DNA from: Caulobacter sp. CCUG 60055
Lineage (GTDB): Bacteria; Pseudomonadota; Alphaproteobacteria; Caulobacterales; Caulobacteraceae
DNA length: 64,000 nt
Direction: 5' to 3'
Assembly (NCBI RefSeq): GCF_022750545.1
Contig: NZ_PUIC01000017.1
Span: 1 to 64,000, forward strand
Shown here: piece by piece, positions 20,104-63,192 of the stretch
Layout of the letters: the number at the start of each line of letters is the position of its first letter
Position numbering within the stretch: the first letter of the stretch is position 1
The notes under the pieces: model-generated
The model's database searches: none
What the model was told of the DNA's origin: nothing
Seen by the model: the letters and a program-made list of their open reading frames with translations, nothing else
Program-made: the position numbers and the translations under genes

Positions 20104-20739
20104 TCAGGCGGCTTCCTTGAAGTCGCCCAGCTGCGCGGCGAGGGCGCGTTGGAAGGCCGGACGGGCGATGCAGCGTTCGAGATAGGCCGCCAGGCGGGGC
20201 TCGTCGATCAGGCCGGGGGCGATGCGCAGGACCGAGGCCATCATCAGGTCGCCGGCCGTGAAACGGTCGCCGTCGAGATAGGGCTTGTCGCCCAGCGCCT
20301 TGGCCAGCGAGGCCAGCCGCTGGCGAGCGAACGCCTCGGCGCTGGGGCGGCGCAGCTTGGCCCACTCCTGGTCGGCGTAGAAGACCTCGATCACCGCCAC
20401 GTTCATGATGTGCGGCTCGATGGAGTTGAGCGCGGCGATCAGCCATTGGGTGGCGCGGGCGCGGGCGGCGGAGTCCTTGGGCAGCAGCGCCTCGCTGCGC
20501 TCGCCTATGTGCAGGACGATGGCCCCGCTCTCGAACAGCGCCAGGCCGTCGTCCTCGATGACCGGCACCTGGCCGAACGGCTGCAGGGCGCGGTATTCGG
20601 GCGTGTCCTGGTCGCCCGCCTTGAGCAGGCGGCGGTTGTAGGGGAGGCCGGCTTCCTCGAGCGCCCAGCGGACCCTCAGGTCGCGCACCTGGCCCTGGGC
20701 GAAAGGCGGGACCCACTGAAAGGCGGAGACGGTGATCAT
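20104..20739 (-). CDS. Glutathione S-transferase family protein
   Basis: This 211-residue protein has an N-terminal thioredoxin-like GST domain with the glutathione gamma-glutamyl-binding motif FGQVPVIEDDGLALFESGAI (cis-Pro then Glu-Ser). An alpha-helical C-terminal domain follows, with the family N-capping box YLDGDRFTAGDLMMASV. Such enzymes conjugate glutathione to electrophiles or act as reductases in the cytoplasm. No catalytic residue is obvious in the first loop (FQWVPPFAQ), so the reaction is unassigned. It is a single-gene unit with about 180 bp to the next gene upstream. Confidence 0.85.
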   Translation of the reverse strand: MITVSAFQWVPPFAQGQVRDLRVRWALEEAGLPYNRRLLKAGDQDTPEYRALQPFGQVPVIEDDGLALFESGAIVLHIGERSEALLPKDSAARARATQWLIAALNSIEPHIMNVAVIEVFYADQEWAKLRRPSAEAFARQRLASLAKALGDKPYLDGDRFTAGDLMMASVLRIAPGLIDEPRLAAYLERCIARPAFQRALAAQLGDFKEAA

Positions 20740-20844: not shown

Positions 20845-21921
20845 CTATCCGAACAGCGACAACTGGTCGCCGGCCTTGGGCGGCGGCCTGAACTTGGAGA
20901 CGTCGAGGGCGGGAAACGGACGGTCGAGGCCGTAGCGGCGAAGCGCGGCCTTGAAACGGGTGCGGATCAGGTCTGCGACCGGGCCTTCGCCCCGCATGCG
21001 CTTGGTCCATTCGGGGTCGTAGTCCTTGCCGCCGCGCATCTGGCGCACCAGCGACATCACCCGGCGGGCGCGGGCCGGCTGTTCGGCCTCCAGCCATTCG
21101 CGGAACAGGTCCTTGATCTCCAGCGGCAGGCGCAGGACCACATAGCGGGCGCAGACGGCGCCGGCCTCGGCCGCGCGCTCCAGCACCGCTTCCAGCTCAT
21201 GGTCGTTGAGGCCCGGAATGACCGGCGAGAAGCCGACCATGGTCGGCACCCCGGCCTGGGTCAGCGCCCTGACCGCCTCGAAACGGCGTCCGGGCGTCGA
21301 GGCCCGCGGCTCCATCGAGCGGGCCAGCGACCGGTCGAGGGTGGTGATCGACACCGACACCGCCGCCAGGCCTTCGGCGGCCATCTCGCCCAGGATGTCG
21401 GCGTCGCGCGCCACCAGGGCGTTCTTGGTGGTGATGCCCACGGGATGGTGGAAGCGCTGCAGCACCTTCAGCACCTCGCGGGTGATCTGCAGCCGGCGCT
21501 CGATCGGCTGATAGGGGTCGGTGTTGGTGCCCATGGCGATGAAGCGCGGCTGGTAGCCGGGCTTGGACAGCTCCTTTTCCAGCAGGCGGGCGGCCTCGGG
21601 CTTGAAGAACAGCCGGCTTTCGAAATCGATCCCGGGCGACAGGCCGAGATAGGCGTGGGTCGGCCGGGCGAAGCAGTAGACGCAGCCGTGCTCGCAGCCC
21701 CGGTAGCTGTTGATCGAGCGGTCGAAACCGATGTCGGGGCTGTCGTTGCGGGTGATGATGGTTCGCGCCGCCTCGGCGGTGAGGGTGGTGCGCAGCTTGG
21801 GGGCCGGGGCGTCGTCGCTGGTCCAGCCGTCGTCGAACGTCTCCCGCGTGAAGGCCTCGAAGCGCCCGGAAGCGTTCGACAGGGCGCCGCGCCCACGGAT
21901 GCCGGAAACAGGGGAGGCCAT
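20845..21921 (-). CDS. PA0069/SplB-like radical SAM protein, SOS-controlled
   Basis: This 358-residue radical SAM enzyme carries the cluster motif Cys76-x3-Cys80-x2-Cys83 (CEHGCVYCFARP). The surrounding NSYRGC and TDPYQPIE motifs are typical of the PA0069 family, which is related to spore photoproduct lyase. The biochemical function is unproven; DNA repair has been suggested by relatedness to SplB. A LexA-type GTTC-N7-GTTC box abuts a TATAAT -10 only about 20 nt upstream, so induction by DNA damage is likely and supports a repair role. It is divergent from the small glycosyltransferase. Confidence 0.85.
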   Translation of the reverse strand: MASPVSGIRGRGALSNASGRFEAFTRETFDDGWTSDDAPAPKLRTTLTAEAARTIITRNDSPDIGFDRSINSYRGCEHGCVYCFARPTHAYLGLSPGIDFESRLFFKPEAARLLEKELSKPGYQPRFIAMGTNTDPYQPIERRLQITREVLKVLQRFHHPVGITTKNALVARDADILGEMAAEGLAAVSVSITTLDRSLARSMEPRASTPGRRFEAVRALTQAGVPTMVGFSPVIPGLNDHELEAVLERAAEAGAVCARYVVLRLPLEIKDLFREWLEAEQPARARRVMSLVRQMRGGKDYDPEWTKRMRGEGPVADLIRTRFKAALRRYGLDRPFPALDVSKFRPPPKAGDQLSLFG

Positions 21922-21938
21922 GCGCCAAACTTAATGCG

Positions 21939-21959
21939 ATTATAGAACAAATCAAGAAC
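21939..21959 (-). promoter_or_regulatory. LexA box and -10 of the radical SAM gene
   Basis: On the minus strand GTTC-TTGATTT-GTTC (21959-21945) is followed immediately by TATAAT (21944-21939), and the gene starts at 21921. LexA bound here would block RNA polymerase between -35 and -10. The repeat spacing and placement match the alphaproteobacterial SOS operator. Confidence 0.8.
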
Positions 21960-22000
21960 ATAACTTGACGGCGCGGCGTCGAGCGGCTTGATGCGCGGCC

Positions 22001-22504
22001 ATGATTTCCGTGGTCATTCCCACCCTCGATTGCGCCGCGGGCCTGTCGGCGACCCTGGCGTCCCTGGTTCCGGCGGCGGTGGACGCGACGGTGCGCGAGG
22101 TGGTGGTGGTCGACGCCGGATCGCGCGACACCACCCTGGTCGTGGCCGACGACGCCGGCGCGCGGGTGGTGCGCCGCCAGGGCGACACGGACGCCCGCGT
22201 CGCCGTCGGCTGCGTGCTCGCCAAGGGACCCTGGCTGCTGATCCTGCGGCCGGGGATCAGGCTTCCCGCCGACTGGGCCGAGGCCGCCCTGTCGCACATC
22301 CGCGATCATTCGGGGGCGGCGGGCTGGTTCGACCTGCGCGGCGGGTCGGGTTTCGGCCGTCTGGCGGCGGGGGCCCTGGGCGCGCCAGCCGACGCGCCGA
22401 TCCTGGCGTCCAGGGTCCTGCTGGAATCGGTGCGGGGGGCGGGACCGCTGTCGCGGCGGCTGGGCCGGGGCCGGATGCGGCCGGTGTTCCTGCGCCAGGC
22501 CTGA
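22001..22504 (+). CDS. Small family-2-like glycosyltransferase
   Basis: This 167-residue protein starts with the GT2 signature ISVVIPTLDCAAGLSATLASL, followed by VREVVVVDAGSRDTT, the nucleotide-sugar-binding Asp region. GPWLLILRPGIRLPADW replaces the usual D-x-D segment, so the metal-binding acidic motif is degenerate. It is shorter than typical GT2 enzymes (220-350 aa) and may be a trimmed or non-catalytic member. The start lies close to the divergent LexA-controlled promoter (about 60 bp away). A convergent uracil-DNA glycosylase gene follows after 33 bp. Confidence 0.7.
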   Translation: MISVVIPTLDCAAGLSATLASLVPAAVDATVREVVVVDAGSRDTTLVVADDAGARVVRRQGDTDARVAVGCVLAKGPWLLILRPGIRLPADWAEAALSHIRDHSGAAGWFDLRGGSGFGRLAAGALGAPADAPILASRVLLESVRGAGPLSRRLGRGRMRPVFLRQA

Positions 22505-22537: not shown

Positions 22538-23380
22538 TCAGGCCGGGCGGTCGAGCCGTTCGGTCAGCGACAGCAGGTCTTGCCACGCCTTCTTCTTGGC
22601 GGCCGGCTGGCGCAGCAGGAAGGCGGGGTGCAGGGTCGGCATGGCGGCCACGGTCTGGGCGCCGTCCTGCGAGGTCCAGTCGAACCAGCGGCCGCGCAGG
22701 CTGAGAATGCCTTCCTCGCGCCTCAGCACCGACTTGGCCGACGCGCCGCCGGCCAGCAGCAGGAAGCGCGGCTTCACCAGGGCGACGGCCCGTTCGAGGA
22801 ACGGCTGGCAGACCGCCTGCTCCTGCGGGGTCGGGGTGCGGTTGCCGGGCGGGCGCCAATAGACGGTGTTGGTGATGAACACCCGGCCGGTCAGGCCGGC
22901 GGCGGCCAACATCTTGTCGAGCAGCTTGCCGGCGCGGCCGACGAACGGCGCGCCCTGGGCGTCCTCGTCGGCGCCGGGGCCTTCGCCGATCACCATCACC
23001 GGGGCGTCCGGCGCGCCGCGCGCGAACACCGCCTGCCTGGCGCCTTCGAACTTGAGGCCGCAGCCGTCGAAGGCGGCGATCGCCGCCTCCAGCGCCGCCA
23101 GATCGCCGGCCGCCGCCGCCGCGGCGTGGGCCTCGGCCAGAGCGGCGGACGCGTCGGGGCCGCCGCGGACGGGCAGGCGGCCGACCGGCGCGGGAACGCG
23201 GGGAGGCGGGGGCGGCGGCGCGCGCATCATCCGGGCCGCCTCGGCGGTGCGGTCCACGGGGGCGTCGTCGAAGCAGGCCTCGACCCCGGCCTGCGCCCAG
23301 AAGGCGAGCAGGCTTTCGACAGCGCGAGGATCTTGTCGGGGATCTGGGCCGGCGGGGATCACGTTACGCTCTTGGAGCAA
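22538..23380 (-). CDS. Family 4-like uracil-DNA glycosylase
   Basis: This 280-residue protein excises uracil from DNA (base excision repair). Catalytic-pocket motifs are GEGPGADEDAQGAPFVGRAG and the C-terminal PTLHPAFLLRQP. Family 4 enzymes usually bind a [4Fe-4S] cluster with four Cys. Here only two of the expected positions are Cys (DGCGLK and AVCQPF); the others are Gly/Phe and Trp (VYWRPPGNRTP). I recall this variant from other alphaproteobacteria, so cluster loss may be a lineage trait. An extra N-terminal region of about 100 residues is Pro/Ala-rich. It is convergent with the small glycosyltransferase. Confidence 0.8.
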   Translation of the reverse strand: MLQERNVIPAGPDPRQDPRAVESLLAFWAQAGVEACFDDAPVDRTAEAARMMRAPPPPPPRVPAPVGRLPVRGGPDASAALAEAHAAAAAAGDLAALEAAIAAFDGCGLKFEGARQAVFARGAPDAPVMVIGEGPGADEDAQGAPFVGRAGKLLDKMLAAAGLTGRVFITNTVYWRPPGNRTPTPQEQAVCQPFLERAVALVKPRFLLLAGGASAKSVLRREEGILSLRGRWFDWTSQDGAQTVAAMPTLHPAFLLRQPAAKKKAWQDLLSLTERLDRPA

Positions 23381-63148: not shown

Positions 63149-63192
63149 GAACATTTGTGGAACATTGACACGTCGCGCCGCTCGTCTAGGGT
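63149..63192 (+). promoter_or_regulatory. LexA box and promoter of ssb
   Basis: GAAC-ATTTGTG-GAAC (63149-63163), the reverse complement of the GTTC-N7-GTTC SOS box, lies 1 nt upstream of TTGACA (63165-63170), a consensus -35. TAGGGT (63187-63192) at 16-bp spacing is a weak -10. ssb starts at 63262. ssb is a standard member of the alphaproteobacterial SOS regulon. Confidence 0.75.

Follow-up and report, generated by a model that had tools for sequence, protein, structure and literature searches.

A radical SAM gene that carries a LexA (SOS) box at its promoter raises the question of what such an enzyme could contribute to the DNA damage response. The gene studied here lies on the minus strand of a 64,000-nt stretch of DNA from Caulobacter sp. 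CCUG 60055 (contig NZ_PUIC01000017.1, positions 1 to 64,000), referred to below as the window, whose numbering is used throughout unless a contig is named. A first-pass annotation had placed the product in the PA0069 family, related it to SplB, and proposed LexA control. Overall, that interpretation pointed in the right direction; it missed the printed prediction of SOS-controlled SplB-like genes, the fact that the protein falls outside the SPL family by sequence, and a conserved C-terminal motif of the type that binds the β sliding clamp. Of all these features, the motif says most about how the PA0069-family protein may work.

The Gene and Its Surroundings

The ORF (20845..21921, minus strand, with an ATG at 21921) encodes a 358-aa protein that matches the NF033668 (rSAM_PA0069) model over its whole length (positions 1–348 of 348) with 525.3 bits against a cut-off of 360, and the Pfam Radical_SAM model PF04055 with 71 bits. 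The assignment to the PA0069 family is therefore upheld. The closest sibling is the Rv2578c family (NF038135), and two Rv2578c-like proteins end in QLRLL and QEPLF; the protein studied here scores 213.3 bits with the model of that family, below the cut-off of 430. The sequence CEHGCVYC at residues 76–83 (21673..21696, minus strand) constitutes the CxxxCxxC 4Fe-4S/SAM motif, and C76, C80, and C83 are invariant in 93/93 homologues. A match to the family was found in 117 of 299 Pseudomonadota genomes, in 111 of them above the cut-off (Caulobacter crescentus NA1000 being one), and in 47/60 genomes of the host's taxonomic family. Among phages, 10 records contained partial matches, none of which covered 80%.

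The gene is flanked by a divergent glycosyltransferase ORF at 22001, separated from the LexA box by 41 nt, with a UDG-superfamily gene (22538-23380) beyond it; a GST-like gene (20104-20739) is located nearby. A tblastn search with six window neighbors against 191 loci did not reveal a conserved partner: the glycosyltransferase was matched at 13 loci, the UDG at 10, and the others at 2–5, counts that all include the source genome or close kin where present and that are lower bounds because the loci are short. Clustering of mechanically called ORFs from 80 loci likewise yielded no partner common to most loci. An operon partner was thus rejected, the neighbors being too little conserved to name one. 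On a Legionella adelaidensis plasmid (locus L235), the PA0069 gene is divergent from a gene for PolX (DNA polymerase/3′-5′ exonuclease); none of the patterns searched gave an exact LexA box at this locus.

Conservation of the LexA Box

In the order of the minus strand, the promoter region consists of GTTCTTGATTTGTTC (21959..21945), a LexA box of the alphaproteobacterial GTTC-N7-GTTC type, followed directly by TATAAT (21944..21939), 17 nt, and the ATG at 21921. The GTTC-N7-GTTC repeat abutting TATAAT described in the first-pass annotation is thus present (21959..21939), and the distance of 20 nt to the gene given there is roughly correct, since TATAAT ends 17 nt and the box 23 nt before the gene. 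As a bare pattern, GTTC-N7-GTTC is not uncommon: it was seen three times in the window against 1.43 expected, and 80 times genome-wide against 40 for a reversed control pattern. The significance of the box therefore rests on its position and conservation. A family-like form, GTTCTTGNTTTGTTC, was found with up to two mismatches once in the window against 0.07 expected, though this pattern was picked after homologues had been seen.

Two sets of loci were used to follow the box in relatives: the closest loci, which are the best 80 of 577 relatives, and a phylum set of the 111 above-cut-off matches (of 117) in the 299 Pseudomonadota genomes. An exact box was present within ~450 nt upstream of the gene in 72/80 of the closest loci and in 68/72 of the alphaproteobacterial genomes of the phylum set, i.e., at 140/152 loci. 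In the non-alphaproteobacterial genomes of that set, GTTC-N7-GTTC was found in 0/39 and CTGT-N8-ACAG in 29/39. Control windows of the same loci, which were taken inside and downstream of the gene and are therefore mostly coding rather than promoter DNA, contained GTTC-N7-GTTC in 2/536 cases (80-locus set) and 3/246 cases (alphaproteobacterial genomes), and CTGT-N8-ACAG in 0/117 cases (non-alphaproteobacterial loci). The presence of GTTC-N7-GTTC in Alphaproteobacteria and of CTGT-N8-ACAG elsewhere indicates that SOS control persists under two LexA motifs. An accidental match of the box at this gene, for which one could cite the abundance of the bare pattern in the window, is hardly credible given that both position and sequence are conserved at 140/152 alpha-type loci, and was rejected on the conservation upstream of orthologues.

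The exact alphaproteobacterial box is missing at 8/80 loci and in 4/72 genomes, and the exact CTGT-N8-ACAG in 10/39 non-alphaproteobacterial genomes; these cases count against the reading that we prefer. Several of the misses carry a one-mismatch form, such as GTACTTGCTTTGTTC in L008. The upstream sequence available for L049 is only 43 nt long. The upstream sequence of L165 contains TTAGTAATAATACTAA, which we take to resemble a Xanthomonas LexA site. No recognizable LexA-like site was seen at other loci, such as L158, L169, L178, L183, and L184. By eye, four of these (the non-alphaproteobacterial L158, L169, L183, and L184) share TGAGAC followed after ~8 nt by GGCGTA or a close form, 20–30 nt before the start, possibly another damage- or stress-type promoter.

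SOS control of SplB-like genes had already been predicted. It was proposed for splB of alpha- and beta-proteobacteria by Sanchez-Alberola 2012 (PMC3323433), whose splB may belong to the PA0069 family and resembles our gene by description: a SplB-like radical SAM gene with LexA sites that fall into two classes with different motifs. Unlike the reading developed here, the passages of that paper on splB take it for SPL photoreactivation, and they contain neither the PA0069 name nor a clamp motif. In the relevant passages of two other papers, SplB (COG1533) is called SOS-regulated in several species (PMC8565304), and SplB-like proteins are placed in SOS-linked operons (PMC3765255); the main text of PMC12700426 does not mention splB or radical SAM. 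The box described here is thus a further case of a known pattern, to which we add the conserved C-terminal clamp-type motif. No paper pairing PA0069 with radical SAM or with LexA was found in our literature search; the P. aeruginosa LexA regulon of Cirz 2006 reportedly lists PA0069.

The Predicted SOS Regulon of the Source Genome

The source genome encodes LexA (TIGR00498, 185 bits, C1:251978-252670), and a box, GTTCTCTAAGCGTTC, is located beside lexA at C1:252715-252729, so the organism has its own LexA with its own box. To survey SOS neighbors, 14 distinct boxes of the 80, picked mostly for A/T-rich spacers, were inspected. Genes identified with Pfam adjoin five of them: lexA, recA, ssb, a ChlI-domain (ComM-like) gene, and an HhH-GPD (glycosylase) gene; a UvrA-like and an ImuA-like ORF were recognized by eye only. 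One of the boxes, GTTCCACAAATGTTC, lies in the window (63149-63163) ahead of ssb. The gene studied here thus has the features of an alphaproteobacterial LexA regulon member, namely GTTC-N7-GTTC at the promoter, kept in orthologues. Together with the organism's own LexA and the same motif at recA, lexA, and ssb, this supports the LexA control proposed initially.

The third GTTC-N7-GTTC of the window, GTTCTCTAATTGTTC (1771-1785), has no ORF of at least 80 aa starting within 200 nt on either side, only short frames. For each of two paralogous small ORFs of 86 and 88 aa (G000:C9:193933-194190 and G000:C1:193857-194024; loci L249 and L251), the distance to the start of a LexA-type box is 32 nt. These ORFs have no Pfam match and a weak-scoring relative in only 1/40 other genomes, and are possible lineage-specific SOS genes.

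Candidate Promoter Elements

The exact TATAAT next to the box (21939..21944, minus strand), which had been taken as a perfect promoter element, is indeed there, but it is found at 1/140 boxed loci, namely that of the source genome. In contrast to the eight of 140 loci with a TA...T hexamer directly after the box, 58/140 have such a hexamer 11 or 12 nt past it. The source-genome gene has both, the second being TAAGTT at +11 (21928..21933, minus strand), 6 nt before the ATG. This hexamer may serve as an alternative −10 element, from which the transcript would be leaderless, with TTGATT within the LexA box (21950..21955, minus strand) as a possible −35 element 16 nt away. A σ70 scan covering 21850-22100 returned no promoter in which both hexamers were present. 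Since TATAAT is peculiar to the source genome and a second −10 candidate occupies the position seen in relatives, the case for TATAAT is weakened; we rejected it as a conserved, decisive element and keep it as a possible −10 element in the source genome. Either promoter would be blocked by LexA.

At the 41 loci where the box is near the gene, the in-frame start that a mechanical call reaches first lies 23–24 nt past the box in 18 cases and 11–13 nt past it in 10. This spacing suggests leaderless transcripts in two registers, whose putative −10 elements precede the start by 6 nt.

Predicted Fold and Relation to SPL

An AlphaFold2 model was built on alignment A1, which comprises 93 of 191 sequences, restricted to at most 420 aa in length and 74% identity. 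The model has a pLDDT of 93.3 and a pTM of 0.91, with a pLDDT of 73 in the last block. In Foldseek and VIA-align comparisons, six SPL entries rank first (Z 18.7–19.3, 260–275 residues aligned), and the best non-SPL fold is NifB (Z 15.3); lipoyl synthase and others also match. The nearest relatives by predicted structure are thus SPL entries (PDB 4fhc, 4fhf, and mutants), which share the CxxxCxxC cluster motif with the PA0069-family protein.

A different picture is obtained at the sequence level. The SPL models TIGR04070 and PF20903 do not match the protein at E ≤ 0.001, SPL is not among the seven PDB sequence hits at E ≤ 1, and hhalign against one SPL sequence aligned 69 columns with a probability of 23.8%, a weak similarity that counts against our reading. 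PF20903 itself was found in 0/21 genomes of the source and related species. In A1, only C76, C80, and C83 are invariant, and the next commonest cysteine column reaches 30/93. We take the hydrogen-donor cysteine of SPL to be C140, a position also named in PDB titles; with the three cluster ligands as sole invariant cysteines, this donor has no invariant counterpart, judged by column conservation. Other differences from SPL are the absence of sporulation and the C-terminal clamp-type motif. The PA0069-family protein is therefore not of the SPL family by sequence, while being SPL-related by its predicted fold, and the proposed relation to SplB stands at the level of fold (Z 19.3) but not as family membership.

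The C-Terminal Tail

The protein ends in GDQLSLFG, in which QLSLF (residues 353–357 of 358; 20851..20865, minus strand) is a putative β-clamp-binding motif. The clamp consensus, as given in part of a published analysis, is QL[S/D]LF, with a conserved Gln, Ser (34%) or Asp (23%) at the center, and protein termini as the usual place (PMC3716654). QLSLF agrees with this consensus in sequence, conservation, and nearness to the terminus. In A1, Q353 is one of 35 invariant columns (93/93), L356 is kept in 91/93 sequences, position 357 is F in 70/93 and L in 16/93, and position 355 is free, with Ser commonest (36/93). The linker ahead of the motif varies in sequence and length; its columns 348, 349, 350, and 352, with entropies of at least 3 bits, are among the most variable.

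A pattern search of the last 30 residues found QxxL plus a hydrophobic residue, or QxxLx[LF], at 186/190 loci (149 in the strict form Q[LM]xL[FL], 33 relaxed, and 4 hexapeptide); L139, which is the source genome, was dropped from this count, and the same species may recur in both locus sets. The loci without the motif by pattern are L014 (QLSFF), L143, L170 (QMDLF earlier, before an extension), and L185 (QLEMF). Shuffled tails contained the motif in 7.9% of cases and its strict form in 0.95%. Among 1068 other ORFs of the same loci, a control that includes mechanical, possibly non-coding frames, the last 20 residues contained the strict form in none and the relaxed form in 13. Nine relatives outside the PA0069 family were also inspected: four have motif-like ends (Nonomuraea QLRLL, Arthrobacter QEPLF, Gemmatirosa QLSLGI, and Roseburia QQSLF), and no such end was seen in Halopiger, Paenibacillus, Lachnospira (mobile pair B), Staphylococcus, or Nostoc. 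As a positive control, we searched DinB and ImuB of the source genome. The strict motif was not found in either (ImuB has QEGLF, DinB nothing by the patterns used), so the own-genome clamp-binder control failed.

DnaN is encoded in the source genome, and the QLSLFG tail, being of the consensus clamp type, is predicted to dock onto it. Our literature search found nothing joining "clamp-binding motif" with "radical SAM" and no report of a clamp motif in the PA0069 family; subscription journals were thinly covered by it, and an earlier mention is possible.

Proposed Function

We consider it fairly probable, from sequence conservation and the predicted structure, that the gene is repressed by LexA and that its product, a radical SAM enzyme tethered to the clamp, processes DNA damage of a kind other than the spore photoproduct. 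The box overlaps the promoter or lies directly next to it, and LexA bound there would keep the gene off until RecA-driven LexA cleavage. Sequence and predicted structure show the product to be a radical SAM enzyme that has an SPL-like barrel and a single cluster bound by CxxxCxxC; its flexible C-terminal QLSLF tail may dock in the peptide pocket of the β sliding clamp. Docking would hold the protein at replication forks and at repair patches. There, a 5′-deoxyadenosyl radical would process, and most probably reverse, a lesion or crosslink in DNA other than the classical spore photoproduct. We favor this reading because the LexA box is conserved under two LexA motifs relative to control windows; because the source genome has LexA, with boxes at lexA, recA, ssb, ComM-like, and glycosylase genes; because the C-terminal motif is conserved (186/190, with Q353 invariant) amid a variable linker; and because SPL is the nearest fold (Z 19.3, the next being 15.3).

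One competing explanation is a genuine SplB kept outside spore formers and repairing UV-made thymine dimers. SPL is the nearest solved fold, CxxxCxxC is present, and the SOS-controlled homologue was earlier named splB and read as photoreactivation (PMC3323433, in its splB passages). Nevertheless, TIGR04070 and PF20903 do not match at E ≤ 0.001, PF20903 is absent from all 21 source and related-species genomes, and no cysteine beyond the three cluster ligands is invariant. We therefore rejected SPL identity on the sequence models and cysteine conservation, and regard this explanation as improbable. The enzyme could also modify RNA, protein, or a cofactor in the damage response and never touch DNA, as radical SAM folds serve a wide range of substrates and the model also matches NifB, lipoyl synthase, and other folds; with SPL ranking above these, and SOS control and the clamp motif both pointing to DNA, we judge this very improbable.

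A further alternative accepts the DNA-damage role under SOS control but has QLSLF packing on its own protein or binding another partner. AlphaFold predicts a short helix at the last residues, the confidence there being middling (a pLDDT of 73 for the last block), and DinB and ImuB of the same genome are without the strict form, which would fit such a tail. Yet Q, L, and F/L are fixed around a free center behind a variable linker, the constraint pattern of a clamp motif, and 4/9 relatives outside the family also end in a motif-like sequence. We find this alternative rather unlikely, and retain the clamp-tethered enzyme as the preferred reading.

A parallel is provided by archaeal SplB-like genes, which, according to the section of the study concerned, adjoin NreB with a possible PCNA-interacting motif, crosslinks being proposed as the substrate (PMC4929162). 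As in our case, a SplB-like enzyme is linked to a sliding clamp. The archaeal link runs through a neighboring protein and PCNA, while the PA0069 motif is on the enzyme itself and fits the bacterial clamp. A crosslink as the lesion is a guess based on this parallel and nothing more.

Extending this reading, we tentatively suggest, as a possibility that we would not yet favor, that PA0069-family proteins are replisome-coupled lesion-reversal enzymes induced by LexA cleavage. They might be the first clamp-riding (C-terminal QL[S/D]LF) radical SAM DNA-repair enzymes, acting in the dark on a fork-blocking lesion, for which an intra- or interstrand crosslink is our best guess. They would then be an error-free counterpart to translesion polymerases, with which they would share a clamp pocket. 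SOS-controlled SplB-like genes have been predicted for more than a decade without an assigned lesion, and the clamp motif offers a direct and cheap test. If the motif works, the site of action would be forks and repair patches, and the enzyme would compete with translesion polymerases and MutS for the pocket that they use.

Interrupted Copies and a Distant Relative

In three genomes, a PA0069 gene that lies beside an intact second copy is interrupted at identical codons of the Fe-S motif (...CEHG) (L252, 985-17104, in G353; L253 in G303; L254/L255 in G090). In L252, 15 kb separate the two remnants, and this interval holds two large serine recombinases, one of them beside the right remnant; the ends have no common repeat of at least 9 bases. 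One recombinase has homologues in 24/299 genomes, none of them near PA0069 in the eight genomes having both. The arrangement looks like an island that inserts in the PA0069 gene and brings its own copy. Finally, on a Staphylococcus saprophyticus plasmid (NZ_CP022057.1, locus L244), a distant relative is flanked on one side by a 2OG-Fe(II) oxygenase gene and on the other by DNA glycosylase and Ada-domain genes, a cluster that is alkylation-repair-like.
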